Below are positions 21,764 to 64,000 of a stretch of DNA of 64,000 nucleotides, piece by piece (position 1 is the stretch's first letter; each line of letters opens with the position of its first letter). This stretch comes from Owenia fusiformis (taxonomy: Eukaryota; Annelida; Polychaeta; Sabellida; Oweniidae), in NCBI GenBank assembly GCA_903813345.2, contig CAIIXF020000005.1, positions 11,661,375 through 11,725,374 of the forward strand, read 5' to 3'. Below the pieces are notes generated by a model, which had not been told where the DNA came from, made no database searches, and worked only from the letters and a program-made list of their open reading frames with translations. The translations under genes and the position numbers were made by a program.

Positions 21764-21979
21764 AGGGTATGACAGGGTGTGTATACTTGCTAGTCTACCG
21801 GGCCATGATAAGGCTAGGTTAATAGGTTTTTCCAAGTACTATGGTAGTCGTAAATGTTCAAAATATATGCAAGGGTATGACAGGGTGTGTATACTTGCTA
21901 GTCTACCGGGCCATGATAAGGCTAGGTTAATAGGTTTTTCCAAGTACTATGGTAGTCGTAAATGTTCAAAATATATGCA
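21764..21979 (+). repeat. perfect tandem duplication of 108 bp, open in one frame
   Basis: Two adjacent 108-bp copies, the second starting at 21872, are identical base for base. Because 108 is divisible by three, an ATG frame at 21696-22004 (102 codons) stays open and encodes a repeated 36-residue block that begins GYDRVCILASLPGHDK. I do not recognise it. It may be a chance frame over a recent duplication. Confidence 0.85.
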
Positions 21980-22908
21980 ATTAAATATCAAGGATGGTAA
22001 ATAAGGTCAATGATCTGCTATTCTATTATCGAGTATGAACATTGGTTGAAAAAAGATCCTATTAATATGAGCACATTATTTCATCCCATCCTTAGAACAA
22101 GTACAGATGCATGAACAGATAGAAGAGTTCTCTTGAAAAGAACCCCCCTCGAATTTCTGGTAAATAAGAGAGTTTTGTGTATTTTTTTCAGGATAACTGT
22201 ACATGTACTTTCTGTTCCAGTGTCTGTTAGAGCAAGCATGTTACTGATTTTAACCTAAAACAATCAATAAATTTTGGCACATAGGGGTATAAATCTGAAA
22301 ATAAGCTGAGGAACCTCAAATGATTATGAAGCCTGTCCACTTCCAAAAGCATTTTTTTCCAAAATGACTCTTTTTCTAAAAATCAGCTTCTGAAATTATT
22401 CTCATTTAAACATGAAGACAGAGAACTAAGAGTACTAAGGCTAGCATCATTTCAAATGGACATGATCTTGCATAGACCTAGGCCTAATTTCTAAAATCAA
22501 AGTCATGATGACCTGAAGGGAGGTAGACTATATAGCAGTTAGATATACTGCACTTAAATGAGCCAATGTATACTTTCAATGTCCTATTTAGAAAGAATAT
22601 GCAATATAATTTCTCAGAACCTAATATTAAAAGAAAACCTCTGATGAATAACCCTAGGTGAATAACATTGCAGCTTTGTTGTAAAACCACGTGGTTTGCG
22701 TTTCATTGGTTGTATTTGCGCAGAAAATTTTCCAGGGAAATTTTTGCTCACATAATCCCATTTTTCTCTAAGAAAAGCATTTTGAATGAAATCTTTTTTA
22801 TCGCAAATAATGCACAGACTATTCACACATACACACAGGCTAAAATTAATACAATGAACATCACAGTTAAGCTAAAATTTAACAGAAAAATATAAATGTG
22901 CTACTCAC

Positions 22909-26672: not shown

Positions 26673-29600
26673 CTATTCTGATACATTTACTGTTATAGTT
26701 TTGCCCTTGGGGTCGTCAAATCTGTCCATCGTATCCAGCCTCATTATCATGGCTAAACCGAAGGTTAAGATCGAGATGAGTATGAGAGACGTTATGAGCC
26801 CCATCCAAATACCAATGCTGAAGAAACCATCACAGTCATCGGGGTATGAGAACTTGCTATCTTTGTCAGTCATAAATGGTTCCACCTGAAAATACACCAA
26901 GTTTTGATTATCAATCATGCCGATTTTTTTTGTTATTCACAACTTTTTTGAATCTGTTTAATCTCAAATATATGGCCATATCACAAATACTAAAGCTGTC
27001 AGGGAACAAAAATAGAAAATGACAGAAATATTATTATATTTTTAGACAGGACATTTGGGATAGGATGAGACATAAAATAACATCACATTTAATATATTTG
27101 TATACTCTGTTTGAGGATATCAAAAGCCATATAAACATGTAGTATGTTCCAATCACTGACCAATATCTTTAGGTCCATGGAACTTATGGAAGCTGTCCTG
27201 GAGTTGACAATTTTGGGAAACCACAACTTTCTCTGATGAAATTTTGACAACTTCTAGTTTATATGGTACATTATAGATGGCAGCTCCTCCTTAGTAATTT
27301 TAAAAACCCTGTTCAGGTTGGGGGAGGGATTACTGTCATGCCATATTCAAGAATATAAAGAGATTTTAACATTTTTTAAAAGATAATATGGATTTTTAGA
27401 TAACTAACTTTTGGCACATTGCTTGGAAATCCAACGATTTTGCTGGGCTCGTAGCTAGTAAATGAAAGATTTTTTGATTTTTGAATTCTAAAGATATTGA
27501 GAGTAATTGAAAACATTTTCTTGTAATTTTAAAGATTTTCTTGAAAGTTTAAAGATTTTGCTAGTAATTCAAAAGATTTTCTTGGAATTTTAGAGATTTT
27601 ACTTGTTATTTTGTCACACATTATACATACTGTAGCTCTGATCGTAATTTGTATTGTGAATACAATTGATGAATCTCTTGAGAGTATCAACGGACTTTAG
27701 AAAAAAAGATAAGATAAAAACATACAACAATTGCAACCTAGAATGACCCATATGTTTATTTCTGAAAGTAAGTATAGAGGGCAGCACCTCCTTGGCATAT
27801 TCATAGCTGTATTACAAAATTTTGACCACTTTGTTGCCAACAATTGACAAACAAACCCAGAATATAGAACAAGTTATTGAATGATATGAAATCAAAAACT
27901 AAGGGGAGGGGTATTCATAAAGGGGAAGAATATCAACCGATATCTGATCTCTTAAACAACACCTTTTAAATAAATGAGTTGGGGGAAGGTCTTATTTTGC
28001 TTTATTTCCCTGGGAGTACAATCCTTTTCAGCGTGTATATAATTTACCTGAAGTCCCTGGAAAACAACATCGGCCTTGGTTGTCCCCTCTGTCTGATTGA
28101 TGCCCCTTGGATTGGTACAATGGTAGGAGAACTTTGTGGCAGCCTTCAGGATCTTCCCAGCATCTGTCATCTTTGCTCCATCACTTGTGAAGCCACCTCC
28201 AGCATAGTTTAATGTCATATTGGATGTCCAGCCATTGAAGCCACCTTTGAATGTGAACTCCATCTCTAAGGTTGTAAATGTAGGGGCAGCATTAAAGGCC
28301 AGCTTTATCCTGGAAATGAAATAACATTACATTACATCATCAGGGAAACTTTATGAGGCAAACTTTATAAGGCAAACTTTATGGGGCAAACTTCACGAGG
28401 CAAATTGAATGGGACAAACCACTCAATTTGTGAAAATCATATGCCTATAATTTGTGCAACTACTGTAACTTGCCTTCCAATTTGTGCAAGTTTCTTGTTT
28501 TACAAATTGTGCAAGTTTCTTGTTCAACATTTTATGCAACTTTATGTTTTACAATATGTGCAACTTTCTTGTTAATATTTTGTGCAACTTACTTTTCTAG
28601 ACTATGTGCAACTTACTTGTTTTACAATATGTGCAACTTACTTGTTTTCTGTGTCGGTACATGTTCCCGTAACTGAAGCAGGTGGCAACATATTGGCTGT
28701 GAGAACCTGCACAACTTTAGGGTTCTGCGTCCACACTGATATTGTGATGTTTTTTGCAAATACTGTGATACAAGCTGGACCAGATTCACTTTTCTTAACT
28801 GTAGCCAGGAAGTATTTGGCAGGGTCAGTTTGGAGAAGATGACGGCCACCAAAAGCCTCTCTTTCACTGCGCACCTAAAACATTCAAATCATATGTAAAA
28901 TAAAATTTTTGTTTTGCACTTACAGGTTATATAAGTTATATATATATGTGCATGTAAATAGCCAGAGGAAATCAAAAATACAATAATTCAGTATTTTGTA
29001 TTCGTGCAGGATCTTTACAATGTTGAAGGACTAATAATAAAGAAGACATATTCTGACACCAATATAGTTTAAGATACTTGTTCTCGGACAAGAAGTTACA
29101 TTTCTGTCACTTTCTGTACATACAGTAGATTGGACAAGCTATTCCTGAAATTCAATAAATTCAGAATGTAAGATATTATACAAACTTACATTAAATTCAG
29201 GGTGGGTTGCATTTTAGCTCACTCGATCAGTGTATGTGAAAAAAAAGAATTTTAATCAAATTCCTTTACTGGCACTGCATCAATATTTCGAGATGCAACA
29301 TAGAATATAATACCCACCTTGGAAGAATCCTTGGCAGTGTAGATTGCTGTAAATGCCTTGTTAGACAGCTGTTTCATGGTCTTCCCAATGATGATATCTG
29401 AAAAACACACATTTAGGCAAGATTCTGAATAGACATTCTTTATCTCCATACAAGGCAAAATTTCATTTGAGCACAAGCATAAAAACTACAAAGCTAAAAA
29501 CAGAAAATGTTCAATAATCAATAATCAATATCATACTCCCATGCAGATATCAAATGGGGCGTACACAGCTCTCCATATTAACCACACACAGTAAATACAT

Positions 29601-44855: not shown

Positions 44856-47800
44856 AACTGAGAACATTTTGTTTGTTATAAAAATTGTTGCAATGGGTAA
44901 GGCCAGTAGAAACTGAATTTCACCCTCTGTTACAAAGATTGTTTCTCTCAAATTGGATGTTAAAACGGGCCTCACGAAATTTCTGAAACATGATTTGACT
45001 TACTTAAATTATCAGTGACATTGAGATAAGAAGATTTGGATGCAATTTTCTCATCTGTTACTTTAGTTTTGTTATACACTCTGGGTTATATTAAGAAAAT
45101 GACTAGAATCTCCCCAATGGAGAACATTGCACTGTTGCAGCATAAAAACTTTATATAAAACTATAGTGTTTATTCCCAGAACACTTTAACATGCACAAAA
45201 GATGCTTAGAGTCATCTTTTCATATGTATGTAAGTTGAATCATTTGGTTTCAGTAATTGTAGTATTAAAAGCATATATATTTTTGGTGCCCTCTACTTAT
45301 TATAATGTAAGTAATAAATAAAGCCCATGGACACATTAACTGGGAAATGGTTTTGCTAAAAAATCTATTAAATCAACTTTTAATTACAAGCATTGACTAA
45401 GTATTGCAACATTGTTTTTAATTGCTTATTTTTACACTCGTGGTGAGCCAACATATTGTCTGACTTAAGCTCATATCCATCTTATGGTGGTCCACATTTG
45501 AAATTTACACCATTGGGCCAGAATTGTTTTTCTTATTTTGGAGAAATCAGCCTATTATCATAAAACATAAGGAATTGCCACGTGAGCCCATCAAAATTCT
45601 GCCATTTGTACGAAGTAGTCATTTTATTTTATCTCTTGAAAACTTAGTGCAGAACAAAACTTGCTGCAAGTGTGTAATCAGTCTATCGTTACTTATTTTA
45701 CCCAAGTTAGCATTATTTATTGTACTGTATGAACGAGTAAAACGGCTTTGTATAAACAAACTGGTATACATGTTTTAATGCCATCCGAAAAGAAATATAC
45801 TCAAACAAAAGTGTTTTCATCCTTGCATACACTGGGATTGTCATCCATATTATCGTACTAGAATAGTACTATGGTGGAAAATATTTATATATTGTTTGAG
45901 AAAGACTTTGGCGTATCAAGTGGAATCATAATTATATTTTCTCATAGTTTGACAAATGTGATCACATATATATCCTACCTTTTTTTACACTGCATATATT
46001 CCTTTCAGAACCCTGAGCAGGGGTGTCGCCATAATTGTAAATAAATTGAGCAAATTGAGGCTAAAGGAGGTCTAATACTACTATCCATGGCAAGGGGGAT
46101 TTGCTCCCAGAGTTCAACATTGATATTCTGTCCCATATATGGGCATGTCATGATACAAAATTCGAATCCAAACAGCTGGCATTTTGTTCACTGCAACATT
46201 TGAATCATGAATTTTGGTCTTATTTTCTAACAAAAAAACTCAAGAAAAGATTGAGATATAAGTTTGAATCTTTTGAACTGTTTATTTTGAATTCATAGCC
46301 AGTTATAATTTCAGAAAATGACGACATTTATATGTCTTTATTGTTGGAAAATATCAAGTTTCGATCCTGGGAGCCAATCCTCCTTGTGTCCTTGGACTTC
46401 ATTTCAACAATTTAAGTTGAGAAAATGTCTGAAAAACAGATTTGTAGAAAACAGATTTGTAGAATTTGCAAATGTGCACTCATTAGGGCCTGTGCAGTAT
46501 TTGGCATGATTATGGTAAATACAGAATCATTTTATATATCATCTAGTCACAAAATGTTAATGATTGAGTGCTGAAAGTAGCTAGCTTAAAGCCTCTAATT
46601 TATTTATCTTTATGGACCCTTAGAACAAATAGTTAATGAACGACTCATCCGCATCGAAACAATTCACTCCCATGGGGTTTCTAGACAGTATCTATCTAAT
46701 TAGATAGATATTACACGATCAAATAGCTGATATGTTGAGTCTTTTCTCAGTCATTGATAGAAAGCATTGTTTTCTATGCATTATTTCATGGTAATGCAGT
46801 GCTATAAAAATGATGTAGCATGATTGTTAGGAAAAACTTTAATTACTTGGGATGACTGAATTGCAAAGATAAATAAGGGATCCTCTGAACACAAGCTCCA
46901 GACATCCAATATGTTCCTTCATTCTTCATAGGGACATACTAGATGATGTCTTGAGTCCTGCGTGTGGAGGATGTTCGGATCTGATTGTGCAAATGTACCT
47001 CTGTTCCCTGACTTGTATTACTTTTGAAAATCAGTTTCCCAATTTCATTCCCAATATTATGTAATTTTACATTATAGACATTGTGAATTTTGTATAATTT
47101 ATTTATTTACATTTCATAAGCTTTATACAACAATAAAACAAATTGCAATTATTTATAGATTCTATTTTGTTGCCATTTATTAATTCAATAATTCTAATAA
47201 TATTATCATGCTGACAGACTGGCCAAATTACATTATGTCCATCTGGAAATAGACATAAACAATCTATGGCAAAATGAAAATTTTCCAAAAAATCATTGGT
47301 TCTTTTTCAGTAAATGCAATCACAATGCGAAAATTGTCTTTTCATGAACTTATAACTTATATCTGCATAACATCTGTTTTGTTGTTGACAACTTCATGAA
47401 TGTCCTAGGCGATGGCTGTTTGTTGTTTTCATTGGTTGCTATGACAATGTCCACTGTATCCACATATTTACAACATTTTTCTTCCTGAAAAAATATGAGA
47501 ATAAGATATTTTCTATGCACCTATTGTAAGTCTGAACAGAATCTAAATATCTTCATTTGATCTCAAATAATTGTTCAACTACTCTGAAGCCAAGAGTCTT
47601 GAACTATTATTGACATCCTCTGAATACCACAATATACAATTTTGATGCTGGTGAAATCATAATTACCCCAGTAGTAGTTGGAGTAGATTGTTTAGAAACT
47701 CAAATTTTTCTTCTGCTTTTTTCTAGAAACTCAGATTTTGTCTTGCTTCTCCAAGTGCACTTACCTGGTTGCCATGACTAGTTGAAAGCTATGACAACAA

Positions 47801-47879: not shown

Positions 47880-48562
47880 GACTATACATACCAGGTTGGC
47901 ATGAGTAGAGTCAACGTCTGGTTAAGTAAGTAAACATACCTGGGTTGCTATGACCACAGCCAACCTCTGGTTAAGTTAACATACCTGATTCCTATGACTA
48001 CAGTCAACCTCTGGTTAAGAATACATACCTGGTTGCTATGACTACAGTTAACCTCCGATTAAGTTAACATACCTGATTGCTATGACTACAGCCAACCTCC
48101 GGTTAAGTTAATATACCTGGTTGCTATGATCTCAGTCAACCTCTGGTTAAGTAAACATACCTGGTTGCTATGGAATTTTCAGTCAAACTACGGTTAAGTT
48201 AACATACCCGATTGCTATGACTACAGCCAACCTCAGGTTAAGTTAACATACCTGATTGCTATGACTACAGCCAACCTCCGGTTAAGTTAACATACCTGAT
48301 TGCTATGACAACAGTCAACCTCCGGTTAAGTTAACATACCTGATGCAATGATTACAGCTAACCTCCGGTTAAGTTAACATACCTGATTGCTATGACAACA
48401 GTCAACCTCCGGTTAAGTTAACATACCTGATGCAATGATTACAGCTAACCTCCGGTTAAGTTAACATACCTGATGCAATGATTACAGCTAACCTCTGATT
48501 AAGTTACATACCTGATTGCTATGACTACAGTCAACCTCTGGCTAAGAATACATACCTGGTTG
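47880..48562 (-). repeat. minisatellite that begins on the TOMM6 exon 2 donor (42-44 bp units)
   Basis: On the minus strand each unit reads approximately TAGTCATAGCAATCAG, then GTATGTTAACTTAACC and GGAGGTTGGCTG. The TOMM6 exon ends CAGTCATAGCAACCAG followed by GTATGT, so the first unit covers the end of the coding exon including its stop codon. Donor-like CAGGTATG recurs at spacings of 44, 42, 43 and 44 bp for the first units (plus-strand positions 48551, 48507, 48465, 48422, 48378). About fifteen units are seen, more diverged toward 47880. Confidence 0.88.
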
Positions 48563-51246
48563 CTATGACTGAGGAGCAGGAATGGCCTCTGCTGCTGCAA
48601 GTTCCCGTACAAGAAGAACGCCACCAGCAAAGAAGGCTAGACTTTTCACAACTGACCTGCAAAATATAACAATATGAGGTCAAGATTAGAAATAAACAAA
48701 GTCCTACTGCAACTACAGTACAGGGTATTAGGCCAGTGTACCTGATAAGATGATGAGTACCAACGTATCTGCATTCACATTTACATACCCCCATAAATGT
48801 TGGATATTTCTGTCTTCTTTTTTTGCGATTTTATAATCCAGTAAATTTCACGAGAAAAATATGAAGGCCATACATATATGCTGGGCTATATTATGCAATT
48901 GAAATTCCAGAATAGAATACAATACAATATAAACCCAACATTTAAAAAATAGATCTATCATCATCATCATGTTTAGGAGGGTAAGGTCAGTCCTGCTAGT
49001 TTTATTATTTACATGAATTCTTATGGGCAGTTTTCAATTTCTTTGGTGTTTTATTTCCCAAAGACGGTAGTGTATGTAATTTAATGTGACAGTTGCACTA
49101 AAATTATATTATATTATATGGGCAAAAATACTAGTGTAGTGTGAACTGGTCATCCTAGGTCTCTTGTGATCTTCTACATGTCTGGGTAGTAGTAGGCGTC
49201 GACCTTTGCTTTGAAATCATCTAATGTTAGGGCTGTAACTACATTCTCTGGGAGGTTGTTACAGTTGTCTATGGTACACTGACTGAAGAACCCTTGTCTC
49301 AAGGCAAGGTTTCATCTGGATTTGTAGAATATTTGGCTGTGGCCTCTTGTGTTGGTGTGACTTGGGGTAAAGAAGTGGGATGGTTCTGTCTTGTGTATGT
49401 CATTCATTATTTTAAATATTTGAATTAAGTCTCCTCTTTTCCTCCTATATGTCATCGGAAATAGATGTAGCTGCTTTAATCATTCTTCATAAGATAGGTC
49501 AGTCATGCCAGTGATGAGTTTGGTAGCTCGCCTTTGTATTTTCTCAATCTTTTTAATGTCCAATTGGTTCACAACTTACTCATTTTAAAATTAAAAGGAA
49601 ACTCCCTGGTTGGCCCATGTTATGTACCCCCTAGGAAGTCCCTTTGTTGAAATATCCTGGAACGACTGTCAGGCTACCGCATTGACATTGCCCCTCTTTA
49701 CCAGTAGTGCAGGCTTATTGTTGCTGTGATTTTATGATTCTTTGTTTATTTATAGCTAGACATGGGCGTAGCGCACGGTACGCTGGGTACGCACAGGCTT
49801 AGACTTAGATTTAGATCATGAATGGTCCAAGCCTGTTCCATAGAAGGAGACCCTATCTGTTGCAAGACTTAGCCTGGCGTAACCGTCACCATGTTATTCA
49901 GTGTTTTTTAAGTAGCGCAAGGATCCTGCCATGACCGTGGTAATGTTATCGTGAAAGCCTAGTATAACCGCGACAATGCTGTATTATATTAAAATGCCTG
50001 CCATGACCGTGGTAGTGTAATCGTGTAAGCCTGGCGCGACCGTAACCTTTATATGACATTAATGACCTTCAGGTTTCGCCCGTTGCAGTTGGTATTTTTT
50101 ATGGATAAATCTTATTAATTGATCATTATAGAAAGTATATGCTTTCGAATCGAAGCTCCTTGAATGAGAGTAGAGATATAGTTTGTTTGCAAATTATTAA
50201 TGAGTAAAAATTATGTTTTCGTTGTGAAATTAATACACATTTTTAGTAAGGCTAGTCCTTATTTACATATTTAAGGTAGTAAAACACGAAGAAAAATTGT
50301 CATTACGGTGTTCTCATGCTACTTTAAATACAACCACGGTCATGAGAGGCCTTGCAACTATTGTCACGGTCATATCGGGCTTTAGTTTAACCTTACCACG
50401 GTCATGACAGGCTTTAACATTCTGACGATCATGACAGGCCTTTCAATCATTATGACGGTCATATAATATATACGGCAATATAACATAACAATGTCACGGT
50501 CATGGCAGGCTTTACAAGCATTGTCACGGCTACATCAGGCCTAACATTACCACAGTCATGACAGGCCTTGCGGCCATTGTCACGGTCATACTGGGCTTTA
50601 ACATTACCATGGTCATGACAGGCCTTGCAATATAATATAGCATTGTCACGGTCATGACAGGCCTTGCAAGCATTGTCACGGTCATATCAGGCTAACATTA
50701 CCACGGTCATGACAGGCCTTGCAATATAATACAGTGTTGTCACGGTTATACCAGGCTTACAAAATAACACTGCCACGGTCATGGCAGGATCCTTGCGCTA
50801 CTTAAAAAACACCGAATAACATGGTGACGGTTACACCAGGCGTTAGTCTTGCAATAGATAGCATGTGCATAGAAGAGAAGCCCACTTCGGGGAGGCCTTC
50901 GTAAAGGTGATTGATGAAACTACACCGAGGCATTGTGGGTCTGTGAGGCATTGAATTGAAACTCTTCCAAACTTAAAACCAAGCAAACAAAGGCAAATTT
51001 AGCCAAATATAGTTCGAGATTTAAGCTTAGCGTGTAGTAGATCTCTATTATCGCCCACTTGAGAAATTTATTTTTTTGTCCGTCGTGTAACTCCAAGCAT
51101 ATTCACACCATACTCATTAAACTGCTACATTATAATCTCTAAAACATTTCAATTAGCTTGATTGTAAAGTAAGCTTACCAGCGCAATGGATCATTGTATA
51201 AACTCTTCATAAAAGCTATCGCTTTATTTGGAGCTTTTCCTGCCAT
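48563..51246 (-). CDS. TOMM6: TOM complex small subunit Tom6
   Basis: Tom6 is a tiny tail-anchored subunit of the outer-membrane TOM translocase that stabilises Tom40. Two coding exons, 51246-51179 and 48656-48563, join in phase at a Trp codon and encode 53 aa. The N-terminal cytosolic part ends MKSLYNDPLRW. The membrane segment is SLAFFAGGVLLVREL and the tail AEAIPAPQS. It aligns by eye with the human TOMM6 pattern (LGLFAAGVWLARNL, then MAPQPG). The human protein is somewhat longer, with extra N-terminal residues. The intron is 2.5 kb with a LINE fragment and a foldback. A donor 7 bases past the stop suggests a spliced 3' UTR. HAL diverges 1.1 kb away. Confidence 0.82.
49120..49565 (-). pseudogene. 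CR1/L2-like LINE reverse-transcriptase C-terminus, decayed
   Basis: The minus strand reads KKIEKIQRRATKLITGM, then HLFPMTYRRKRGDLIQIFKI, QIFYKSR and NLALRQGFFSQ, the pattern at the end of CR1/Jockey-type reverse-transcriptase ORFs. Two in-frame TGA codons break it, one after YEE where Trp or Arg is usual and one after YKSR. A TATAATATAAT-type 3' tail follows near 49110. It lies in the TOMM6 intron in the same orientation as the gene. Confidence 0.8.
49853..50861. mobile_element. 1-kb foldback with 200-bp arms in the TOMM6 intron
   Basis: The left arm (49853-50060) starts CTATCTGTTGCAAGACT and includes GTAGCGCAAGGATCCTGCCA. The right arm (about 50655-50861) is its close reverse complement, ending AGTCTTGCAATAGATAG. 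The interior, mainly on the right, repeats CACGGTCATGACAGGCCTT-like units spaced by about 25-60 bp. There is no ORF. An RNA copy could form a long hairpin. Confidence 0.85.
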
Positions 51247-52351: not shown

Positions 52352-55300
52352 ATGAAATTATCGGTGCGAGTAAGAGGGGAGTGGTTTGCAATACCATGCA
52401 ATAAGGGTCAGGAGACCATAAAGTATGAAAATCATTATGCCATAAGTATATAAAAGAATATAACATAATATATATAATCTTTTACTTATTCAGACATAAA
52501 TAATAAAAAATATTTATCTTTTCTTCAGAGTTATAACTAAGCTAAGAGATATTTGGCATAACTGAACAAATTTATGAAAATAAAAAAATTACTGTGTGGA
52601 AGAGATATATGTACTGTATTTCAAAATATTGGAAACAGCTTTTTTCTATAGGAATTAATTTTGTTGATTTTGCATTTTATATCCTGCATTATTTTTATCT
52701 TATAGTTGTTTGTTTTATTGAATGTTTACTGAAAAAAGTAATCAAAAGATTTTTTAGCCTCAAAATTACAATTATACATTATTTGTAACATAGAAATGTT
52801 TGGAACTGGTCAAAGAATTTTCAAGATTTTAAAGACATTAATTTGGTTTGGTGCCTTAATGTAGAGTTTATCATGTGTTTACAGTACATTATATGTCACA
52901 TGTATAGTTTGCCATAAGTCACAAGTACCACCAAGTACATTACATCATGTTACATGGAAATTACATCAAATTCTACTTATTTTCAGTATATCATAGGCTA
53001 CATCAGGAGTATATCATATGTACATATGTATATCATATGTACATGTGACATATGCCAGAACATCATATGTCACATAAACATATTATTTCCTCTTTACAGT
53101 ATATGTCACATGTAAAGAACACCATGTCACATATACTGTATGTACTGTATCATATGTCACATGTACATTGCATTATATGTCTAATATACAGTAAATCCTA
53201 CATGTAAAGTACACCATATGCCCCATGTTTCAGATGGCTGGGAGAGCAATCATTACAGAGATACAACAAATCAAAAGCAGCCCATGAACATATCTTACAC
53301 ACCAAAGACCCCATCGCTGAGATACGCAAAACTCGTGGTGGCGCAATACTCGATGGGGATGATATAATCAGAGATATTCTAGATGACAATGATTTTGTCT
53401 CAGTTGGTAAGTAATATTCAGCAGACTTTCCTTCATTTGCTTGTTTGTTTGCTTTTTTGTTGTTTTGATATCTATTTCATGGTTTATACCAGGAAAGGCT
53501 CAAATGTAGCCCTGTAACACAAGAGCATTCGAGAATGTCAACACCGAAACCTTTTACTGGTAATGGAAGTTGCATAACAATAGAACTGCAAGATAAAAGT
53601 TGTAGAGCTTGAGCTTACTGTCTTGACATTTACTTTAAGGACCAATCAAGGTCCCATTGTTCACAATAGTTGATTTTACCAAGAATTTTTGGACCCGTAA
53701 CAGAATATCCATATTGAATAAATTAGTGAATTCTGTATTGCAGTACTGAAGAGTGACAAATCCAGTCCTATAACTGGACCTGTAGAGATCCCATATGTTC
53801 CAGAACAAGTGTATCCTTTAAGATAGAACAGTGGTCAGTGGCTTCAAGGACCAAGTTAGCTTACGGTCGACCAACTTCATTACAATGTAATGTTGTTAAA
53901 AACCAATTCATTCCTTAAAGCAGGTGTTTGAAATACTCAAACTTCAATTTGACATATAGATTTGTGAATAATACATTTTTCTATTCATACCATATAGAAT
54001 ATTTTGGTATTTTGAGGTCAAGGTCATGAGAAGAGTTAAGGTCATCTCATAGGTCAGTGTTCAATTTTAGCATCCCTAGAAGCTCTATGCTGGTACTAAG
54101 TACATAAAGGTCACATTAAGATATAGATATTCTATATTTGTGCTATATATATAGTATATAGAGGTCATTAAAGGTCAAGGTCATGATTAAAGGTTAAGGT
54201 TAATCTCAAATGTTACTTTGATACATCATTCAGTTATTTTCATACATTTCTTTATCAGACCAGGAAGATTTAAAGCTCCACTTGACGTAAGTTTAATATG
54301 ATTACACACATACAGTAAAACTTGATTCAGCCAGAACCAGTTTGAAGTATTACATTCCGCAGATTTTTACATTTATGGGTTCTGGTAACATGAGATTTAA
54401 AAAAATAAATGAAGCGGAAAATATATTCAATTTCAATTCAGTTTCACTTGAGAGAGGTGTTCACTTTCACAGGTTTTACTGTATATGTATTAGTTTATTG
54501 AAGCCAAAATTTGCAAAAGTTTTCAAAATGTTAAAAAGATATTGTGAATTATTCATACTCAAGTATGCACATATTATAGTAATACTCGCCATAGAAAGAC
54601 TTCAATGAAATTAATTTGTTCAATTACTGTTGTGAAATGAGTAGTTGTTTTGGTTTTGATCTGATAGGTTTCATCCCTAATTCAAAGCTCAGATGACACA
54701 TTAACATTTGATCATCAAGAGCGCTGCCAGAATCTAATGTATGTAGTAAAAGGTGAGGCAGTATAGGTATGACAATACAGGTGAGGCAATATAGGTAAGG
54801 CAATATAGGTAAGGCAATACAGGTGAGGCAGTAAGGCAATACAGGTGAGGTAATATAGGTAAGGCAATACAGGTGAGGCAGTAAGGCAATACAGGTGAGG
54901 CAATATAGGTAAGGCAATATAGGTAAGGCAATACAGGTAAGTCAATACAGGTGAGGCAGTAAGGCAATACAGGTGAGGTAATATAGGTAAGGCAATACAG
55001 GTGAGGCAGTAAGGCAATACAGGTGAGGCAATATAGGCAAGGCAATACAGGTGAGACAAATTCAATAATATCAGCATTATCACTTATCTCCGTTTGTACT
55101 TTATTTTCCTCCAGTATTTGTCACTTGATGGATTCTCTCTCACTACGGATGATTTGGTTCTGCTTGGAAAAGGGCGATATAAAATACAGGTACGTTTATC
55201 ACTTTTATGGTACTTGAAATATGTTCTTGTCTAATGCTAATGGGTGTGTGGGGTTGTGATTGGATGGCACAAGAAATCTTGTCATCAAGATAGGAAGTAA

Positions 55301-58300
55301 ACCATTTATCTGTTAAACTTGGATCATTTAGAGATGCATAAGTGTACTTGTGACCAGAACTTATTGTAGAGAAAGTGGAACTGAGATTAAATGACATGCA
55401 TTTGTGATATAAGATTTGTGATTTTAGATTAATCTTATGTCTCAAAGGTGAAATTGAGGAAAATTGATCCAAGTAAAGTTTATCAAATGTGATTATGTGT
55501 CCATAATTTTATTTGTGTATTGATCAAAAATCTAAAATGCTGATGTTCCTCTTTTTTGTAGCTGGAGAAAGAAGTTGCTGAAAGAGTCGTGAAAGGTCGA
55601 AAGTTGCTTGAGGATATTGTAGCTGAAAATAAAGGTGTGGGTACTTTGTAATGTAACTTCCATTTATACCCGCCATAGAATGTATATACTTTCAAATCAG
55701 AAATTACAAAACTCAGTTGAAAACCAAAAAGTGAAGAAATTCCATTTCAATATTTGATTGGAATAATTGTGATTTTGAACTATGTATTCTTATCATTATT
55801 TGTGAATGTGTATATTTCGGTTTATTTCCTTTGGAGCAATTATTTCATGAAAATTACATTTAAATTAAGGCTGAAAGTTTCAATTAGTCTATTTCTGATG
55901 TCTGGATAAGTATTCATAGTGCCAGAAGGGGACTGATCAAAATGTATTCAAATCATCCCTAGAAAAGTACATTTAGTCATGAGAAAGCAAATCCCCAGTA
56001 TCTCAAAACCTGAACTTTAAAAAGAAACTGTATCTATCAACTCCTACACTGAAGTTGATAATCATGAATAATAACTAAGAGAGCTCACACTGTATTTTCT
56101 CTATTTCAGTTGTTTATGGCATCACTACAGGATTTGGAAAGTTTGCCAATACAGTTATACCAAATGAAAAACTAATGTGAGTACATTTATTAAATGAAGC
56201 TTATTCTATTCCTCATGGATGATAATTGCTATTACAACCACAGGCTGTTGCAGCCATATTGATGTGAGAGGATGCTCTCCGGGGGGAATTCTGCCACAGC
56301 CCTGTGAGCTGTGACAATAGGGAGTGATTCAATAGGTACTATATGTTATAAGGGAGATTGAATTACTGCTAAAATGAAAGGCAGCAGAAGAGGGATCTAT
56401 TTTACTTTCAAAATGAGGGATGGACACAAAGTTGTAGAGAGTACATATCATGATTCTTTAGTTATATTTGGGTTTAAGTGTGTTTGTGTTCTTACAAAGT
56501 TGCCTTTTGTGAAGTATGATAATAAAGAGTTACGTTAGACCTGTTTTGAAGAATGCAATTGTGAAACTTGTAAAATTTGGTCCCCTGGGAAAGATGACAG
56601 TAATCCCCAGATATAATAATAGTATTACTGATTCAAGTTCTCCCTTTGTAACCTCTCTTATAAAGTGTGAGTGTGCATGATGTGAAGATGTTCACAGGTT
56701 AAAGGTCAATGAATCCTAAACCAGAAAATTTATTATTTTGCACCTCTTTGTTAAGGTAGTCCTGCAGTAATTATCTTCAGTTTCATTATTCAAAATATTT
56801 CAATTTTGAACTATATATTCTGCCAATATCCATTTATAATAAATATTCAAATTAATAATTTATTATTTTGCACCTCTTTATTAAGGTAGTCCTGCAGTAA
56901 TTATCTTCAGTTTCATTAATCAAAATATTTCAATTTTGAACTATATATATTCTGCCAATATCCATTTACAATAAATATTGAAATACAGTAAGTATTCAAA
57001 TAAAAATGTGAAAAATATTTACTATTGGCAATTATAATCAGACATCAGACGATAAGATAAAAATTGTCATCCTGTGAATTGACCTAATATGCGCAGTCAG
57101 TAGGCCAATGTGTCATTTACATTCTAGAAAATTTGAACTTTGAATATGATTCTGTTGCTTCATAATCTCCTGTCTATAAACTTTAATTATGAGCTGTCAT
57201 ATTAGTCTGCTTTATGGCATTATCATAAAATATTATAATGTACTCAACTTCATTCATGAAATTTAAGAGAGATCATTCATTTGTTCAATGCATAAAAGTA
57301 TACTATGGAGTTTACATTAAGGCTATATTTTCCTCAAAATGAATTCTCTCATTATGTCACCACCAAAATGTGGTGACATATTGTTATGGTCTCCGTTTTT
57401 TTCTGACAATGGTTGGCGATCGGTGGTTGGCGGTTGGCAGCAAAATCATCTTCAAGTTCTCTGTTCAAATCTGACTTTAGATTTGAGATTTGGCCTTCAA
57501 TGATCTTCTCAAGGTCAAAAACTCATAATATTGTGAGCAACTTGGTGGTAACATTTTGTCATGTTAATGCTTTGATTTCATTATACTCCTCATTTGTACA
57601 TCCAATCTAAATATGATGATAAGGATGCAAATGACACGCAATTCATATTTCATATCTCACTGGTATCAATCTTGCATGGTGAATCAAAAAAATAAACTCC
57701 AGAAAGACATACCCCAGGGACATACCATCCAAGTGTTGATAATATGATTCCAGAGAGCTCCAGGAGAATCTTATCAGGTCTCATAGTGCTGGAGTTGGTC
57801 CTCCACTTCCTCCTGACAGGGTACGCATGCTGTTGGCTCTCAGGATCAATGTCCTTGCTAAAGGTTTCAGTGGCATCTCTCTGAAAGTCCTCAACCAATA
57901 TGTGGATGCCTTCAATGGTGAGTAATGGTGTTCAACCCGTTGTAGTGGTCTAGACTGTTAGCTTTTAACTCATTAATCAATTTAAAATGCTGAAAATACT
58001 TTTTTGTCTTATTTGTGTCTTAGGTAGTCTCCTCTGTAACATTGATCATGAATTCATTTGTCTGATTGATCCAAAACTGATTCTTTTTCAAAGGAAATAA
58101 TATCTTAGTTGGATGACAATTTTGGTGGACACGTTGACTTGATATTCTTTTGCAATATGTTGACTATCACTTGACAAACAAATAAACAAACAAACAAGCA
58201 AACAAACAAAATGCCTTGTTTTACTACAAGTAATTATATGTATCATCTCAGCATCCCATGTTTTATATCATTTCAGCAAACTGCTTACCCTGGGTACCCG

Positions 58301-61300
58301 AGAAGGGCACAGTGGGTGCCAGTGGGGACCTGGCCCCCCTGTCCCATTTAGCTCTAGGCATGATGGGAGAGGGCAAGATGTGGTCTGCAGAGAGCGGTTG
58401 GGGAGAAGCCAGATATGTAAGCATCCATGTTACTAGCTTCACAGATTTATTACAGATTAGATTGTCATTTCTACAGCTACAAGTTACATTTCTTTAGCTA
58501 CAAATGAGAGTGCGCAAGTGATGTAGATAAGTACTCATGTAGTCATCAAATCGTCTCGCCAAGGTGTTATAGAATTCGTCTCGATTAGGCGTTCAGATTT
58601 CGGGAAGTATTTCACGAGTCTGCGATTTGCAAATTTGTATTGTTATTGGTTAGTTATTACACAGCGAATCCTGATGTCAAATGTATTATTTTTCTCACAA
58701 ACAGTGTCAAATGTATGTACAAATGATTGTTCCATGTATTATTTGTTTTTAGTTGAATGAATATGAGTAATAAATCTAATTCAAAATTAAACAAAATCTA
58801 AACAAAATGTTTTAGAGTTTATTTTCTAATTTCATTATTTAATCAGTCCGTTGAACCAGAAAAAATTGCCATGTCAGTGAAAATCAAAATTATAAATGTT
58901 GACGAGAGCAAATATATTTCCAATTGGATTTCCATCATCACACTATATACCTAGCGTATCTAGGTCATTGTAGGGTGAACAGCATTGAAAACAGGACTAA
59001 AAATTGACTGTAGGACATGATGCAATGATAAAATTTTCTTGTTTATTTTTTTATGAAAAATCACGAATCTTATTCGGTCTCAGACTTAAAATCATGCAAA
59101 CTACTGTGTACAGTCCATAAATTTAATTAAACGTTAAAGGCTTTTGATTTAAAAGCAGGAGTCCTCAAAATCTAATTAATTGGAATGAGGAAACTTCCCA
59201 ATTTGTCATTTGTTTTATTTTTTGTTTACAGGTTCTTGAGGCACATGGACTACAGCCAATAAAGCTTGGGCCTAAAGAGGTAAATATTCTTAGTTAGTTT
59301 AACATTAGTTGTAGTTAAAGGTGAAACTTTATTTCAGCTTTTATTCTTCTTGAAACGTGGTGCATCTTAAAAATCTATAAGTGGGACTCCCTTTATAGAA
59401 GCTTTGAACTAAATTAACACTTCTTAATGCTAAAATTGATAGTTTAATCATACATTTTAAGAAAATAGGTATGTCAAAGAAGGTGTTTAAGCCAAATATT
59501 GACCTGATAGCTCAGAAAAAAAAAAAAAAATCGAATTTTCTCTCTATAGTCCTTGTTGCCCCTTTAACTCATTTAATAGCAACATATATGAATTTATGAT
59601 TAATTGTGGATCAGTCTGGGGGGGGGTAGCAAAATAATTACTTGATGAACTGAATTTAAGATAATCAATGTATCATAGATTTTTTCATAATACATGTATT
59701 TATAGATTCTTTTGTATCAGAGAATGAGTGTTTCTCACAATTTTTGGGTCATTCATTAGGGAGATATCAAGTTTATTCATTGTTTGAGAGATAGTTTAAT
59801 AAAAGAGGATGTGTACCAGAGCCTTGACAAACACTGCAGTTTTGAAATTGTTTCAACTTTGAACAAGTTATGAATTTTGTTTATCTGCATGTCAAGTAGT
59901 GTATCATTCATTTGCTCTGCTATTGCTTTACACCATGGTGTGTATGAGTGTATCTACTACATAATACCATGGTATTCTTGAAAGTCCTTGTTCAACCTAT
60001 TTTTGGGTGTTTATTAATAATATGGACAACTGATGGATAAATGACTGATAAAAGTAGCAAGTTCAGTGCCTTTTAATCTTATTTATTTCACTTCTAATTT
60101 TATCTTATGAATATTTATAATTTTTAACTATTTAAAGGTCCCATGTAAAGTTTGTATCATTTCTTATAAAGTGGACTAATTTTCAAATACACTGTATGTG
60201 AATTTTCAACCATTTACCAAGAAATAACTTCTTACATTACATTATTGAACACAATGTGAAACATTATTTTCACCTTTAATGGCCTACTCGAGGTCAAAAA
60301 GGTCTTTTTTCAACTTGCTTCAAACTGACCAAATTTTTTCAAATCATCTATAGGATCTCTGATATTCAAATCTGATTTTTAGATTTAAGACTTGACCTTC
60401 ACTTACCTTCTCAAGGTAAAAAGGTAAAAAAAATCATCTACAAGTTCTCAAAAGTTCAATCTGGCTTAAGATTGAACTCATAATATTGTGAGCAACTAGT
60501 TGGTGACATTTTGTCATGTTAATGCCTTATATTATGATGTCCTGCAGGTAGCACATTCTTTTGAGTCTATCTCTCTATCAGTCTTTTCTTATAATCACAA
60601 ACTTGATAAATACCATAAAATTGTCCTATACATAATATTGCATACAGGGCCTTTAAAGGTATCAAAATTGTATATTCTTATTAAGTCTAATAAAAAACAA
60701 CACTTCAGTAGAACATTAAAGTACAAAGATATTAACTTGTTTTGTGGACCCAAGGACTTGTTAATGATGCAAATGTTATTTTTGATTATTAGTTTGTCAT
60801 TGATACAATCTTAAAGGACATCTTCGTTCTTGGAGTGACCTAGGAGGTGTGTCTGTACTATGTTAACTCTTTCATACCAAGAGTGACTGGAAACCTGTCA
60901 CAGAAATACTGCTCTAATTGTAATAGAATTTATTTGATCTATACAAAATATGTTTTAATATGTGCCTGTAGGTCCACTTTACCAGTTTTATCAGAATACA
61001 CACCAGACTTACCATTTTAAGCTTTTGAAATTCAAAATCTGGAAAAAAGAAAAATGCTCTGGTACCCAAATGGTTAAAGGACATCTCTGTTCCTCAAGGT
61101 CATATTGGAGGTGTGTTTATTACATCAATACCTGTCCTAAGCAAAATATCAGGAGACTCATTTAGTATTCACAATTAGGGAAAGAAAGATGCCAGGAATC
61201 TGCCAGGAATAAAGAAAACATCCATGCAAACTTTCAGTTGTATAGAAATGCAAGAATCTTAGACAATTCATTTACATTTGAGAGAGAAATATGACACACA

Positions 61301-63489
61301 AATATGATCTCATATTTTAATCAAGGACTGTTTATACTAATATTGTGTACTTGAAGAAATATTGATTATTGTGACATTCTTGAAATTATGATACGATATG
61401 AGTTGACAAATTATCCACAGATAACCTTTACTATCAGATTTTATCCGAAATGTAGTTCAAATTTCACTTTTATTATTCCAGAATGATATTTCTTATCCAT
61501 GGAGTTTCATGATTTGTTGAAACAAAGATTTTCAAAAATCATACCCCATATCAAAAACCTTTCAGTGCATAGCACTAACATATTTGAATTTTTTATTTCT
61601 CTAGGGATATATCCCATACCATGAACCTTCCAGCGCATAACATTCATATATTTTTATTTTTAACATTTACTTCCAGGGCCTGGCTCTCATCAATGGTACC
61701 CAGCTCATAGCATCTCTAGGAGCTGAAGGTGACTTTTATATTATTTTATTATTTTAAATAAGCATTGACATTCTTTAAGGGAATTAGAAAGAGTAGAGAG
61801 AGTTAAGTGTTGGAAGGTTTTCATAAAGAATGCAGTGTTTTCCTTAGAATACTCATTTTATTTTCAGAAAACTTAAGTTATTGGCGATTTAAGATTCAGA
61901 TAAAAATTCAAAATAAATGATACTTGTACAAATTATGCACAGATGTTGTTGCTTATTATGTGAAAAATGAGAGCCCGGGATGAGAGCATATTTATCAGAA
62001 TATATGGATCAGCCCTTGTATGACATATTTCTGGGTGTATCATCATTTTTATGTTCATGAAAACTTTTTGTTAATGATCATTATGAAAATGCATGCAACA
62101 CCACAACTACTATATGTGTAAATATTGTACCTAATACCCTATCATTGGTTGGTGGATACTATAGTACATGTGCATATATGACTTGTTTACTTTAACTTGA
62201 CTCTTTGGAAGATATATGGTTTTGTTTATTGACTCAATTTATCTTGGTCTGAAATTTAAAATTAATTAAAAATATTAAGTTTCCATGACATGATATTTGA
62301 ACTTAAACTTCGGTCAATTAAAAGAGTCTTGAAAATGTTCGATCGATTGCTTTTACAATGGTTAAACAATGTCTTGAGTTTTTTGCTCGGGGCCTTTAAT
62401 ATATTTTATATATTTTCGAATATTGGTCCCAGTTTCTTGAAAATGATGACGAAACTGTTGCAAATAAGGTACATGTTACATGTAATGATCATTTTAAAAA
62501 TAATACCTATAATATATATTTGAATAAACAGTATGAAAAATTACAAAATTTTATAATGTTCACATCGAATGATATTCACATTACGATATATTCCCATTAC
62601 ATAAAAATGTAGAAATGTGATCACTCAAGTTTCACTTGAGAGAGGAATTTGCATGTGCATATTTTAATGCACATTGTTTGAAAAAATTCTATTTTCACTT
62701 CAAAATTCGGCTTCAAAATATTCCAAGGCTAATAAGAAACTTTAATTTTTTAAAAGGAGGGAAAGTATCGCAACAGATTTTGGACAGTCATATGTTGGAG
62801 TTGGGTTATTTTCTGAGGATTTAAACAGCTGCATATGTTAGGCCAATGCATTACCTCCAGGAAAAGACTATTTATTTACTTGTACATATTGCTTGTAATT
62901 TTGTAACCACTATTGATCTGATTCTGCCTTTAAACAAGTGTTGCATGGAATAAAATACAAATGCAGTAAACAAAACAAAATAAGTAAATAACATGTAAAA
63001 GACTTTAAACATTTTTCAGCACTGGAAAGGGCAAATGCAATCTGTAGGCAAGCTGACATTATTGCAGCTTTAACTCTAGAGGTGTTAAAAGGAACAACAA
63101 AAGCATTTGACAGTGGTGAGTTTCATATTTTAACAATCAAACTTTAATAGAGAAAACCACCAAATGTCTCCCACACCTACCATGGCTGTAATTCAATACG
63201 TACAAGATGAAATATCAGCCCCTTTTGGAAAGGCTATTGGTGAATAAAATACAAACTGATTGATGCAACATCTTTCAATCAGCACTGTACATAGAGTACA
63301 TACAGATACATATAATTGAAGTATTATGTTGTAGATATTCATGCAGCAAGGCCCCATAAAGGCCAGATAGCTGTTGCCCAAAGATTCCGGGCTGTTCTAC
63401 ACTCTGATCAGCACCCCTCTGAGATTGCTAACAGCCACAGGTTCTGTAACAGAGTACAAGATGCCTACACTTTGAGGTGCTGTCCACAG
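52352..63489 (+). CDS. HAL: histidine ammonia-lyase (5' two thirds, 13 exons)
   Basis: HAL deaminates L-histidine to trans-urocanate, the first step of histidine breakdown, in the cytosol. Exons are 52352-52422, 53234-53406, 53744-53810, 54259-54286 (28 nt), 55115-55189, 55562-55634, 56110-56176, 57754-57917, 58277-58416, 59232-59279, 61677-61728, 63020-63115 and 63335-63489. Phases agree and give 403 codons; the remainder is off the right edge. The N-terminus [16 protein letters not shown] matches the animal HAL leader. [17 protein letters not shown] carries the MIO-forming Ala254-Ser255-Gly256. [49 protein letters not shown] and [13 protein letters not shown] are the expected active-site segments. 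Nothing is broken in the visible part. The ATG was chosen because the leader motif starts there and phase 2 fits exon 2. Confidence 0.96.
52880..53215. repeat. ATATGTCACATGTA-rich tandem array in HAL intron 1
   Basis: Variants of ATATGTCACATGTA, GTACATATG and ACAGTATATGTC recur many times right up to the exon 2 acceptor. The array is rich in short palindromes such as CATATG and ACATGT. It is non-coding. Confidence 0.75.
54008..54205 (+). repeat. AGGTCA half-site cluster in HAL intron 3
   Basis: The string GAGGTCAAGGTCATGA near 54015 and AGGTCATTAAAGGTCAAGG near 54162 give several AGGTCA hexamers, including direct repeats with 0 and 4 bases between them, plus TCAAGGTCA. Similar AAGGTCA strings occur in the MITE interiors, so a repeat origin is likely. 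Confidence 0.55.
54765..55056 (+). repeat. 14-bp minisatellite of donor-like units in HAL intron 4
   Basis: Units of GGCAATATAGGTAA and GGCAATACAGGTGA alternate with an 8-bp short unit GGCAGTAA, forming a higher-order pattern. On the sense strand there are about eighteen AGGTRAG motifs, roughly eleven as CAGGTRAG, each close to the ideal 5' splice site. The array ends about 60 bp before exon 5. Minus-strand frames through it ([17 protein letters not shown]) are repeat artefacts. Confidence 0.9.
56727..56984 (+). repeat. tandem duplication of about 130 bp in HAL intron 7
   Basis: TATTATTTTGCACCTCTTTG at 56731 recurs as TATTATTTTGCACCTCTTTA at 56861. The following TTAAGGTAGTCCTGCAGTAA and TTCAATTTTGAACTATATAT blocks are in the same order with few changes. 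Confidence 0.9.
57354..57575. mobile_element. ATGTCACCACC element, medium-length copy
   Basis: The left end ATGTCACCACCAAAATGTGG forms a hairpin with GTGGTGACAT. The right end reads GGTGGTAACATTTTGTCATG then TTAATGC. The interior is shortened relative to 40051-40619 but keeps TTCAAATCTGACTTTAGATT. Confidence 0.75.
58165..58212 (+). repeat. (AAAC)n simple repeat in HAL intron 8
   Basis: The sequence ACAAACAAATAAACAAACAA and its continuation is a tetranucleotide microsatellite with a few interruptions. Confidence 0.9.
59280..63019. other. HAL introns 10 and 11, mostly unremarkable
   Basis: Apart from exon 11 (61677-61728), a partial ATGTCACCACC element with the AGGTCAAAAAGGTC interior (about 60270-60530), an A-run near 59516 and a G-run near 59618, I see nothing recognisable here. 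Confidence 0.55.
60270..60530. mobile_element. ATGTCACCACC element, 3' part only
   Basis: The copy has TTTTTCAACTTGCTTCAAAC and the right end TTGGTGACATTTTGTCATGT then TAATGCCTTA of the 40051 member. The left hairpin end is missing or too diverged to see. Confidence 0.65.
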
Positions 63490-64000
63490 GTTCGCTTATG
63501 TCTAATAATTTTTCTTGTTTTGTGTAGAGAAAGTTTCAGCTTGAAATTAGTTACCCGCCATTTTGTCTCTTGATCGACCCTATTCAATCGTTTTGGCTTA
63601 CATGGTGAGCCTTTAGAATTGTCCACTCATCTGTCCATCCACTACAATCATTATCCATTAACAATTCTCAGACAAAACTGCCATTTATCTGAACCACCAC
63701 ATACACATTGTATGAGGGTTGATACTGTTGTTCAGTGCCATTGGGCCTGGCTTTTACTTTTGCCTTGTTTTGGAGAAATTGGCAATTTTCACCATGTGAG
63801 CTCAACCAACCTCCGGGGGTTTCACTCCAATATACCTCTAAAGACCCCTTTTTTGGGGATTTTTTCCATGTCAATTTCCTCTAAAGATTGAAAGTTTCCA
63901 TGTATACTACCTCTCAGACTTATAAAAGGGAGTAAATTTCCTGAAATATTGGTATATTAACTACAAAATCTATGTTTTGGGTGATTTGTCCCAGACTTTG

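Follow-up and report, generated by a model that had tools for sequence, protein, structure and literature searches.

The TOMM6 gene carries a minisatellite that begins at one of its own exon-intron junctions. In the window (the whole stretch of 64,000 nucleotides that was analysed), the tail of TOMM6 coding exon 2, stop codon included, is the first of 15 copies of a segment spanning the junction, most of which keep an intact splice donor. Arrays of this type also lie at the ends of apparent exons elsewhere in the genome. The sequence evidence points to a tolerated minisatellite that was probably born at the junction, of the kind described in amphioxus as a mirage, with the exon-proximal donor in use.

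The TOMM6 gene and its predicted transcript

TOMM6 lies on the minus strand. Coding exon 1 (51179..51246) opens with an ATG at 51246-51244. Coding exon 2 (48556..48656), placed like the first from the sequence, directly follows TTTTGCAG and contains the stop codon TAG at 48565-48563. The coding parts join in phase to give a conceptual protein of 53 amino acids, MAGKAPNKAIAFMKSLYNDPLRWSVVKSLAFFAGGVLLVRELAAAEAIPAPQS. A Pfam search assigned no family to this product. Comparison with the PDB matched it to TOM6, a subunit of the mitochondrial import receptor (9etm chain G, E = 1.1e-4), and the gene name given in the sequence-only reading therefore holds.

At 48556 exon 2 ends in ...CCTCAGTCATAGCAACCAG; GTATGT comes next, and the stop codon lies 7 nt upstream of the donor. 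A 3'-UTR intron of ~1.07 kb, extending from 48556 to ~47485, is plausible. The best-scoring candidate 3' splice site in a scan occupies 47485..47507 on the minus strand (TTTTTTCAG, pyrimidines 16/20), and the putative 3'-UTR exon beyond it (47090..47484, minus strand) has AATAAA at 47181 and 47107. The scan of the TOMM6 strand found no A(A/T)TAAA from 48556 to 47485.

Intron 1 of the gene has repeats of a different sort. At 49872-50841, inverted repeats of 154 nt (arms 49872-50025 and 50688-50841, 88% complementary) enclose short tandem repeats of the CACGGTCATGACAGGCC type, an arrangement reminiscent of a non-autonomous DNA element enclosing a minisatellite. The minus strand at 49177-49520 looks like the 3' end of a broken non-LTR retroelement reading frame, ...ENVVTALTLDDFKAKVDAYYYPDM.

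Structure of the TOMM6 array

The minisatellite occupies 47927..48570 on the minus strand. Tandem Repeats Finder (TRF) and decomposition resolve it into the exon-tail copy and 14 units of 42-47 bp, bounded by AG|GTAT or, in one case, GG|GTAT. TRF reports a period of 44, 14.6 copies, 86% matches and a score of 865 for the array; on the 683 bases from 47880 to 48562 the score is 849, against 52 for the best of 200 Markov resamplings. The 15 junction copies run from 48558 down to 47940. Copy 1 is the exon tail itself, TCAGTCATAGCAACCAG|GTATGT, with the TAG at 48565-48563 inside it, and the repeated segment consists of ~15 nt of exon tail, stop codon included, and ~30 nt of intron. Thus the array has swallowed the stop codon, as had been proposed. 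The proposed count of about fifteen units, with the exon end as the first, also stands; the proposed unit length of 42-44 bp was too narrow.

The splice signal is repeated with few changes. As expected from the earlier claim that most units keep a donor, exact CAGGTATGT is present in 13 of the 15 junction copies, the other two reading CGGGTATGT and CAGGTATAT. The junction is AG|GT in 14/15 copies and GG|GT in 1/15. All 14 units between junctions begin with GT, and 13 of them finish with AG and one with GG. The sequence CATAGCAA occurs 11 times in the array.

Beyond its distal end two eroded copies could be aligned, both on the minus strand. The nearer (47886..47921; local alignment score 32) ends in ...CCTGGTATGT. 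The outermost (47753..47780; score 31) reads TAGTCATGGCAACCAG|GTAAGTGCACTT and has the consensus donor CAG|GTAAGT (CAGGTAAGT). The maximum local score among 30 resampled regions of 1.3 kb was 23. The outer copies of the array are thus worn, and the inner ones more alike.

A mobile element or imported satellite that landed at the junction by chance is hardly conceivable as the source of the array. The genome searched, one assembly of 498.3 Mb in 525 contigs, gave a single match to the whole TOMM6 array, the array itself, in a DNA search that skips very common words; the array is therefore not a dispersed mobile sequence. In addition, the end of the host exon itself is part of the units, and unit sequences vary among genes. 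Nothing in the data favoured such an origin. Mobile origin was rejected on the single genomic match and on the derivation of the units from the host exon.

Two other searches concerned the same DNA. An Rfam search of the window returned no matches at gathering thresholds. The motif TTGCTATGAC was considered as an RFX X-box and dropped; the two array sites that fit are the only two on the window's plus strand.

How the array may have arisen and been tolerated

In the preferred reading, a segment across the TOMM6 exon-intron junction would first have been duplicated in tandem, and slippage or unequal exchange, as known from other minisatellites, would then have enlarged the array and homogenised its copies. 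The spliceosome would pick the exon-proximal donor at 48556 and join it to ~47485. If it does, the whole array leaves with the 3'-UTR intron and the mRNA is unchanged. In vertebrates, an exon junction at least ~50-55 nt past the stop codon leads to nonsense-mediated decay, a rule that may not hold for this animal. Along the TOMM6 array the distances from stop codon to donor are 7, 51, 93 and 136 nt and onward. A stop codon 7 nt before the donor makes the exon junction harmless. Use of an inner donor would merely lengthen the 3' UTR, yet would place the junction 51, 93, 136 or more nt past the stop, with possible decay. Arrays could therefore be tolerated here and at other junctions for as long as the first donor wins.

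The form of the units allows a different reading, which is improbable on balance: they may be dual-specific AG|GT sites, and stretches of whole units could be removed as introns, as in recursive splicing or in UBC. Nearly all TOMM6 units have the form GT...AG (all 14 at the start, 13/14 at the end), so wrong donor choices would erase themselves. In some units of arrays elsewhere the AG follows a pyrimidine tract (locus L068: TTCATTTTTCAG|GTAAGT), and dual-specific sites in tandem repeats are documented for human genes in the accessible part of one study (PMC10809524). Against this, a good pyrimidine tract is missing ahead of the CAG in the TOMM6 unit, and an intron made of one unit, 14-54 nt, would be short.

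Other repeats in the window

A second donor-anchored array lies in the same window, in a gene assigned to histidine ammonia-lyase (HAL), and here the sequence-only reading, which had pointed to a second gene with an unrelated unit, was right. The assignment of the exon at 54668..54752 (plus strand) is based on its open frame and its position, with Lyase_aromatic exons downstream on the same strand (57746-57919, 58267-58389 and 63331-63492). The translation of the exon next after the array presumably resembles HAL as well. From the donor of the first exon, 14-bp units of the GTGAGGCAATACAG type, identified by TRF, decomposition and the sequence itself, extend over 54753..55059 (plus strand) and fill most of the 362-nt intron 54753-55114. 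They are unrelated to the TOMM6 unit.

Elsewhere in the window, two identical tandem copies of 108 bp (TRF, 100% matches) at 21764-21980 lie in frame within an open frame of 103 amino acids; this duplication is either very recent or a matter of assembly. Arrays of 14-bp and 25-bp units at 28342-28648 are in the intron immediately 5' of an ATP6AP1-like exon (VAS1_LD, E 6e-4, under the family cut-off). They stop ~35 nt short of the acceptor and do not span the junction.

Donor-motif arrays across the genome

The genome was searched for arrays with a pattern of three donor 9-mers separated by 15-45 nt, with reversed motifs as controls. The pattern of three CAGGTATGT gave 203 matches in the whole genome against 43 for the reversed motif, and that of three CAGGTAAGT gave 139 against 50. 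Single occurrences number 6953 against 3341 reversed for CAGGTATGT, and 4020 against 4455 reversed for CAGGTAAGT. From these two sets of counts, array matches per single occurrence exceed those of the reversed motif 2.3x for CAGGTATGT and 3.1x for CAGGTAAGT. As a separate observation, CAGGTATGT is about twice as common genome-wide as its reversed control and CAGGTAAGT is not commoner than its own; donors in this genome may favour GTATGT. GC makes up 34% of the window and 35% of the fetched loci.

Among the matches listed, roughly the first hundred from each search, there are 19 arrays, 9 with CAGGTATGT and 10 with CAGGTAAGT, when clusters within a few kb are counted as one. The upstream flank was read for all 19, and 16 were judged by eye to lie at an exon end (7/9 and 9/10, respectively). 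Fifteen of these 16 begin exactly at the exon end and repeat its last bases. The CAGGTATGT arrays at exon ends are those of TOMM6 and of loci L001, L009, L010, L011, L013 and L014. Pfam gave tRNA-synt_2d for L011, which we take to be FARS2, and THF_DHG_CYH for L013, presumably MTHFD1; the genes at L001 and L009 are presumably liprin-like and ATP7-like. The CAGGTAAGT arrays at exon ends are in L067, L068, L069, L070, L071, L072, L073, L074 and L075, where Pfam gave NIF for L067, B56 for L074, the Il2rg model for L071 and, under the curated cut-off, a kringle for L070. Pfam supported six of the 16 scanned array peptides at E <= 1e-3. In L073 a diverged first copy precedes the array by ~90 nt, and none of 500 shuffles reached its alignment score.

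In all 15 exact arrays, at least one unit repeats the exon end for 8-49 bases beyond the CAG. This recurrence exceeds the 99% null in 14/15 (L010 equals the null, and L009, L013, L068 and L070 are only slightly above it), with the value taken as the best of at most seven inner units and compared with a null of single positions; for L001, L010 and L071 some random positions landed inside the array and raised the null. Three of the 19 listed arrays have no recognisable exon end: no exon is visible at L012 and L076, and the array of L015 begins ~90 nt after a TBC-like-looking exon. These three count against the reading of the arrays as junction-born. An array in the SLC25A12-like locus L053, considered as a further case, starts ~30 nt past the donor, does not resemble it and was excluded from the count.

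In L072 (~1199-1260) a 54-bp unit covers almost all of a 62-nt exon. Its length is divisible by three, and the use of inner donors, or the inclusion of entire units, could therefore add repeated coding sequence.

Duplications of acceptor type were seen at mitochondrial-carrier loci, for which 30 of 125 family matches were fetched. One carrier gene, on contig C4, has them in successive introns. In L025 (2792-2916) a two-copy duplication crosses the acceptor of a clear exon. In the next intron (L066, 80-1400) a 65-bp unit with TTATATTCCAG|GCTCAAAGC is present in ~20 copies, the first copy being in frame after the preceding exon, whose far end was not located.

Frequency of arrays at real donors

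It is tempting to regard junctions as mutational hotspots at which active donors, through transcription, R-loops, U1 binding or AG|GT itself, start tandem duplications more often than other sites. This is a possibility, held tentatively and judged rather unlikely; the 2.3x and 3.1x excess of array matches per occurrence over the reversed motifs speaks for it. As controls, each 9-mer contributed 20 sites at which it occurs singly, all within the first 4 Mb of contig C1 and each read with 400 nt upstream. By eye, 14/40 clearly end a real exon (L083, L086, L088, L090, L091, L092, L094, L100, L103, L105 and L109-L112) and up to 21/40 do so if doubtful cases are added. Compared with 16/19 for the arrays, this gives a Fisher p of 0.0006-0.023, on calls that were unblinded and with more upstream sequence displayed for the array loci than for the single sites; the unequal display and the open calls weigh against the hotspot. 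For the motifs taken separately, p is 0.007-0.10 (CAGGTAAGT) and 0.05-0.23 (CAGGTATGT). Under a Pfam-only criterion (E <= 1e-3) the proportions are 6/19 arrays and 7/40 single sites, p 0.31. Peptides were scanned for 16/19 arrays and 24/40 single sites, and among these alone the proportions are 6/16 and 7/24, p 0.73. Both Pfam comparisons likewise tell against a hotspot. A codon-usage classifier for exon ends, which had little training sequence, did not separate known exons and was left unused. As the excess by eye comes from unblinded calls and the Pfam-only p is 0.31, the data only suggest that arrays are in excess at real donors.

Rate estimates based on the by-eye donor share and a guessed genome coverage, with the share of the genome behind the arrays listed put at 46% and 75%, favour the hotspot. 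They place the array rate at donors 4.8-9.9x above that at non-donor copies of the same 9-mers (p 0.00001-0.005) and 2.1-3.1x above that of the reversed motif TGTATGGAC (p 0.010-0.10). For CAGGTA(A/T)GT donors, the fraction bearing such an array comes to an estimated 0.5-0.8%, with the by-eye share and the guessed coverage again as inputs.

The same 9-mers form arrays away from donors too, as does the reversed motif. Judged by eye, the units of the reversed-motif control arrays cross a junction in 0/8 cases (L017 and L020 without their far flank), which is what a non-donor motif should give; the arrays of L016 and L020 start or end at most 100 nt from an apparent junction. In sequence that was not picked for its arrays, the baseline coverage by arrays with at least three copies and a period of 10-100 is 2.3% (the window), 1.2% (21 carrier loci, partly overlapping, outside which the long C4 array lies) and 3.0% (the 40 single-site loci). 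A hotspot is made less likely by this coverage of 1.2-3.0%, which predicts hits on junctions regardless, by the occurrence of acceptor-type duplications and by the chance that genes are just richer in minisatellites. Of the earlier proposal that a mechanism acting at donors, rather than a mobile sequence, made the arrays, the exclusion of a mobile sequence is upheld by the single genomic match; specificity for donors is not established.

Conservation of the repeated donors

In TOMM6, conservation is higher in the donor columns than elsewhere in the unit (mean 0.985 vs 0.856, exon copy included), and only 2 of 44 windows, the splice-site window itself counted, are as high. This raises the possibility that the array is a functional donor cluster under selection, for example raising U1 occupancy or tuning TOMM6 output through junction position and decay. 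The 13/15 exact donors and the stepwise passage of the inner donors across the decay threshold are consistent with it, as are the columns themselves. Because selection on donors would give the same result, the better-kept TOMM6 columns were counted against the preferred reading.

The column test was applied to seven arrays: TOMM6, HAL, the carrier acceptor array and L001, L009, L011 and L014, the last four found by their donor motif and so not free of bias. The splice-site mean exceeds that of the rest of the unit in TOMM6 and, slightly, in L001, L009, L014 and the acceptor array, and falls below it in HAL and L011 (FARS2). Windows as high as the splice site number 12/52 in L014 and 18/65 in the acceptor array, and are at 11/23 or commoner in the others. 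General selection on splice-site columns was rejected, the window being exceptional in one array of seven, TOMM6. A functional cluster is made highly improbable by the ordinary window in the six other arrays and by the lower conservation of the splice site in HAL and FARS2.

Among 14 coding arrays, splicing from the next exact donor would shift the frame or add a stop in nine and would do neither in five. Five of 14 is close to one third, the in-frame share that an unconstrained unit length, like that of intronic sequence, would give. The column and frame tests together fit passive intronic arrays spliced from the exon-proximal donor, with a reservation for TOMM6.

Comparison with known systems

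The junction minisatellites previously known to us came from a few genes of amphioxus and a single human one. The human interferon-induced gene IFI6 reportedly has a minisatellite of 12-bp units at an exon end that supplies multiple splice donors, and use of more than one of them is said to be proven. Like it, the TOMM6 array consists of tandem units containing a splice donor; the TOMM6 units are longer, and their donors are known from sequence alone.

The amphioxus mirages, in the accessible portions of the two papers on them, are minisatellite-like duplications of exon-intron boundaries in Adh3, BflGb6, BflGb9, TnC and PGBD5 (PMC3087553, PMC3902484). RT-PCR suggested that splicing was undisturbed (PMC3087553, accessible portion). 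According to the same portions, they share with the arrays described here tandem repeats across a real boundary, at donors and acceptors, AG/GT signals in many units, gene-specific unit lengths, and cluster edges that escape homogenisation (PMC3087553, PMC3902484). The TOMM6 units span a boundary predicted from the gene structure, with the exon tail (~15 nt) joined to the head of the intron, and the AG/GT signals are kept (14/15 AG|GT, 13 of them exact CAGGTATGT). Unlike the mirages, the TOMM6 unit contains a stop codon and its predicted intron is in the 3' UTR, and more than 12 genes were found in a single survey. Mirages have so far come from cephalochordates, a matter of host and not of structure. 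Amphioxus has 19 chromosomes and a higher GC content; the genome here, with 12 chromosome-size contigs of 31.9-62.2 Mb, eight further contigs of known length between 50 kb and 0.66 Mb, and a GC content of 35% in the fetched loci, does not look like that of amphioxus. A search for the GFP family gave no match, a weak indication because the controls were silent too, and COX1 likewise had no match.

Tandem-repeat arrays of AG|GT sites can act as dual-specific splice sites, for example in UBC, as the accessible part of that report describes (PMC10809524). Like those repeats, the TOMM6 units are bounded by AG|GT (GG|GT at one junction), and whole units are potential introns. The UBC units, as far as this part of the report goes, are coding monomers for which splicing was shown (PMC10809524), whereas the units here are mostly intronic and their splicing is predicted. 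Intron gain through tandem genomic duplication is reported to involve, likewise, a local duplication at a gene's splice signals (PMC4974935), with a new intron as the outcome; here an existing intron was extended. Earthworm metallothionein has intronic minisatellites, none of which is seen to span a junction in the available part of the paper (PMC12783039).

Significance

To our knowledge, with the subscription literature thinly covered, three things are new here: the likely phylum (annelid), how many genes are involved, and a stop codon swallowed by the array. A broader idea would make junctions hotspots of minisatellite birth, linked to splicing or transcription and affecting ~0.5% of donors (arrays with at least three perfect donors), with the arrays spliced out whole or stepwise and feeding new introns. 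Units flanked by AG|GT would let an array be removed whichever donor is picked and so shield it from selection. This combination is doubtful and is offered as a conjecture. Arrays at splice junctions recur in more than 12 genes of an animal that is apparently outside the chordates, often enough to be counted, and the question of whether such junctions are mutational hotspots can thereby be put to the test. The choice of one donor among fifteen near-identical ones and the role that such arrays may have as seeds of new introns become testable as well.
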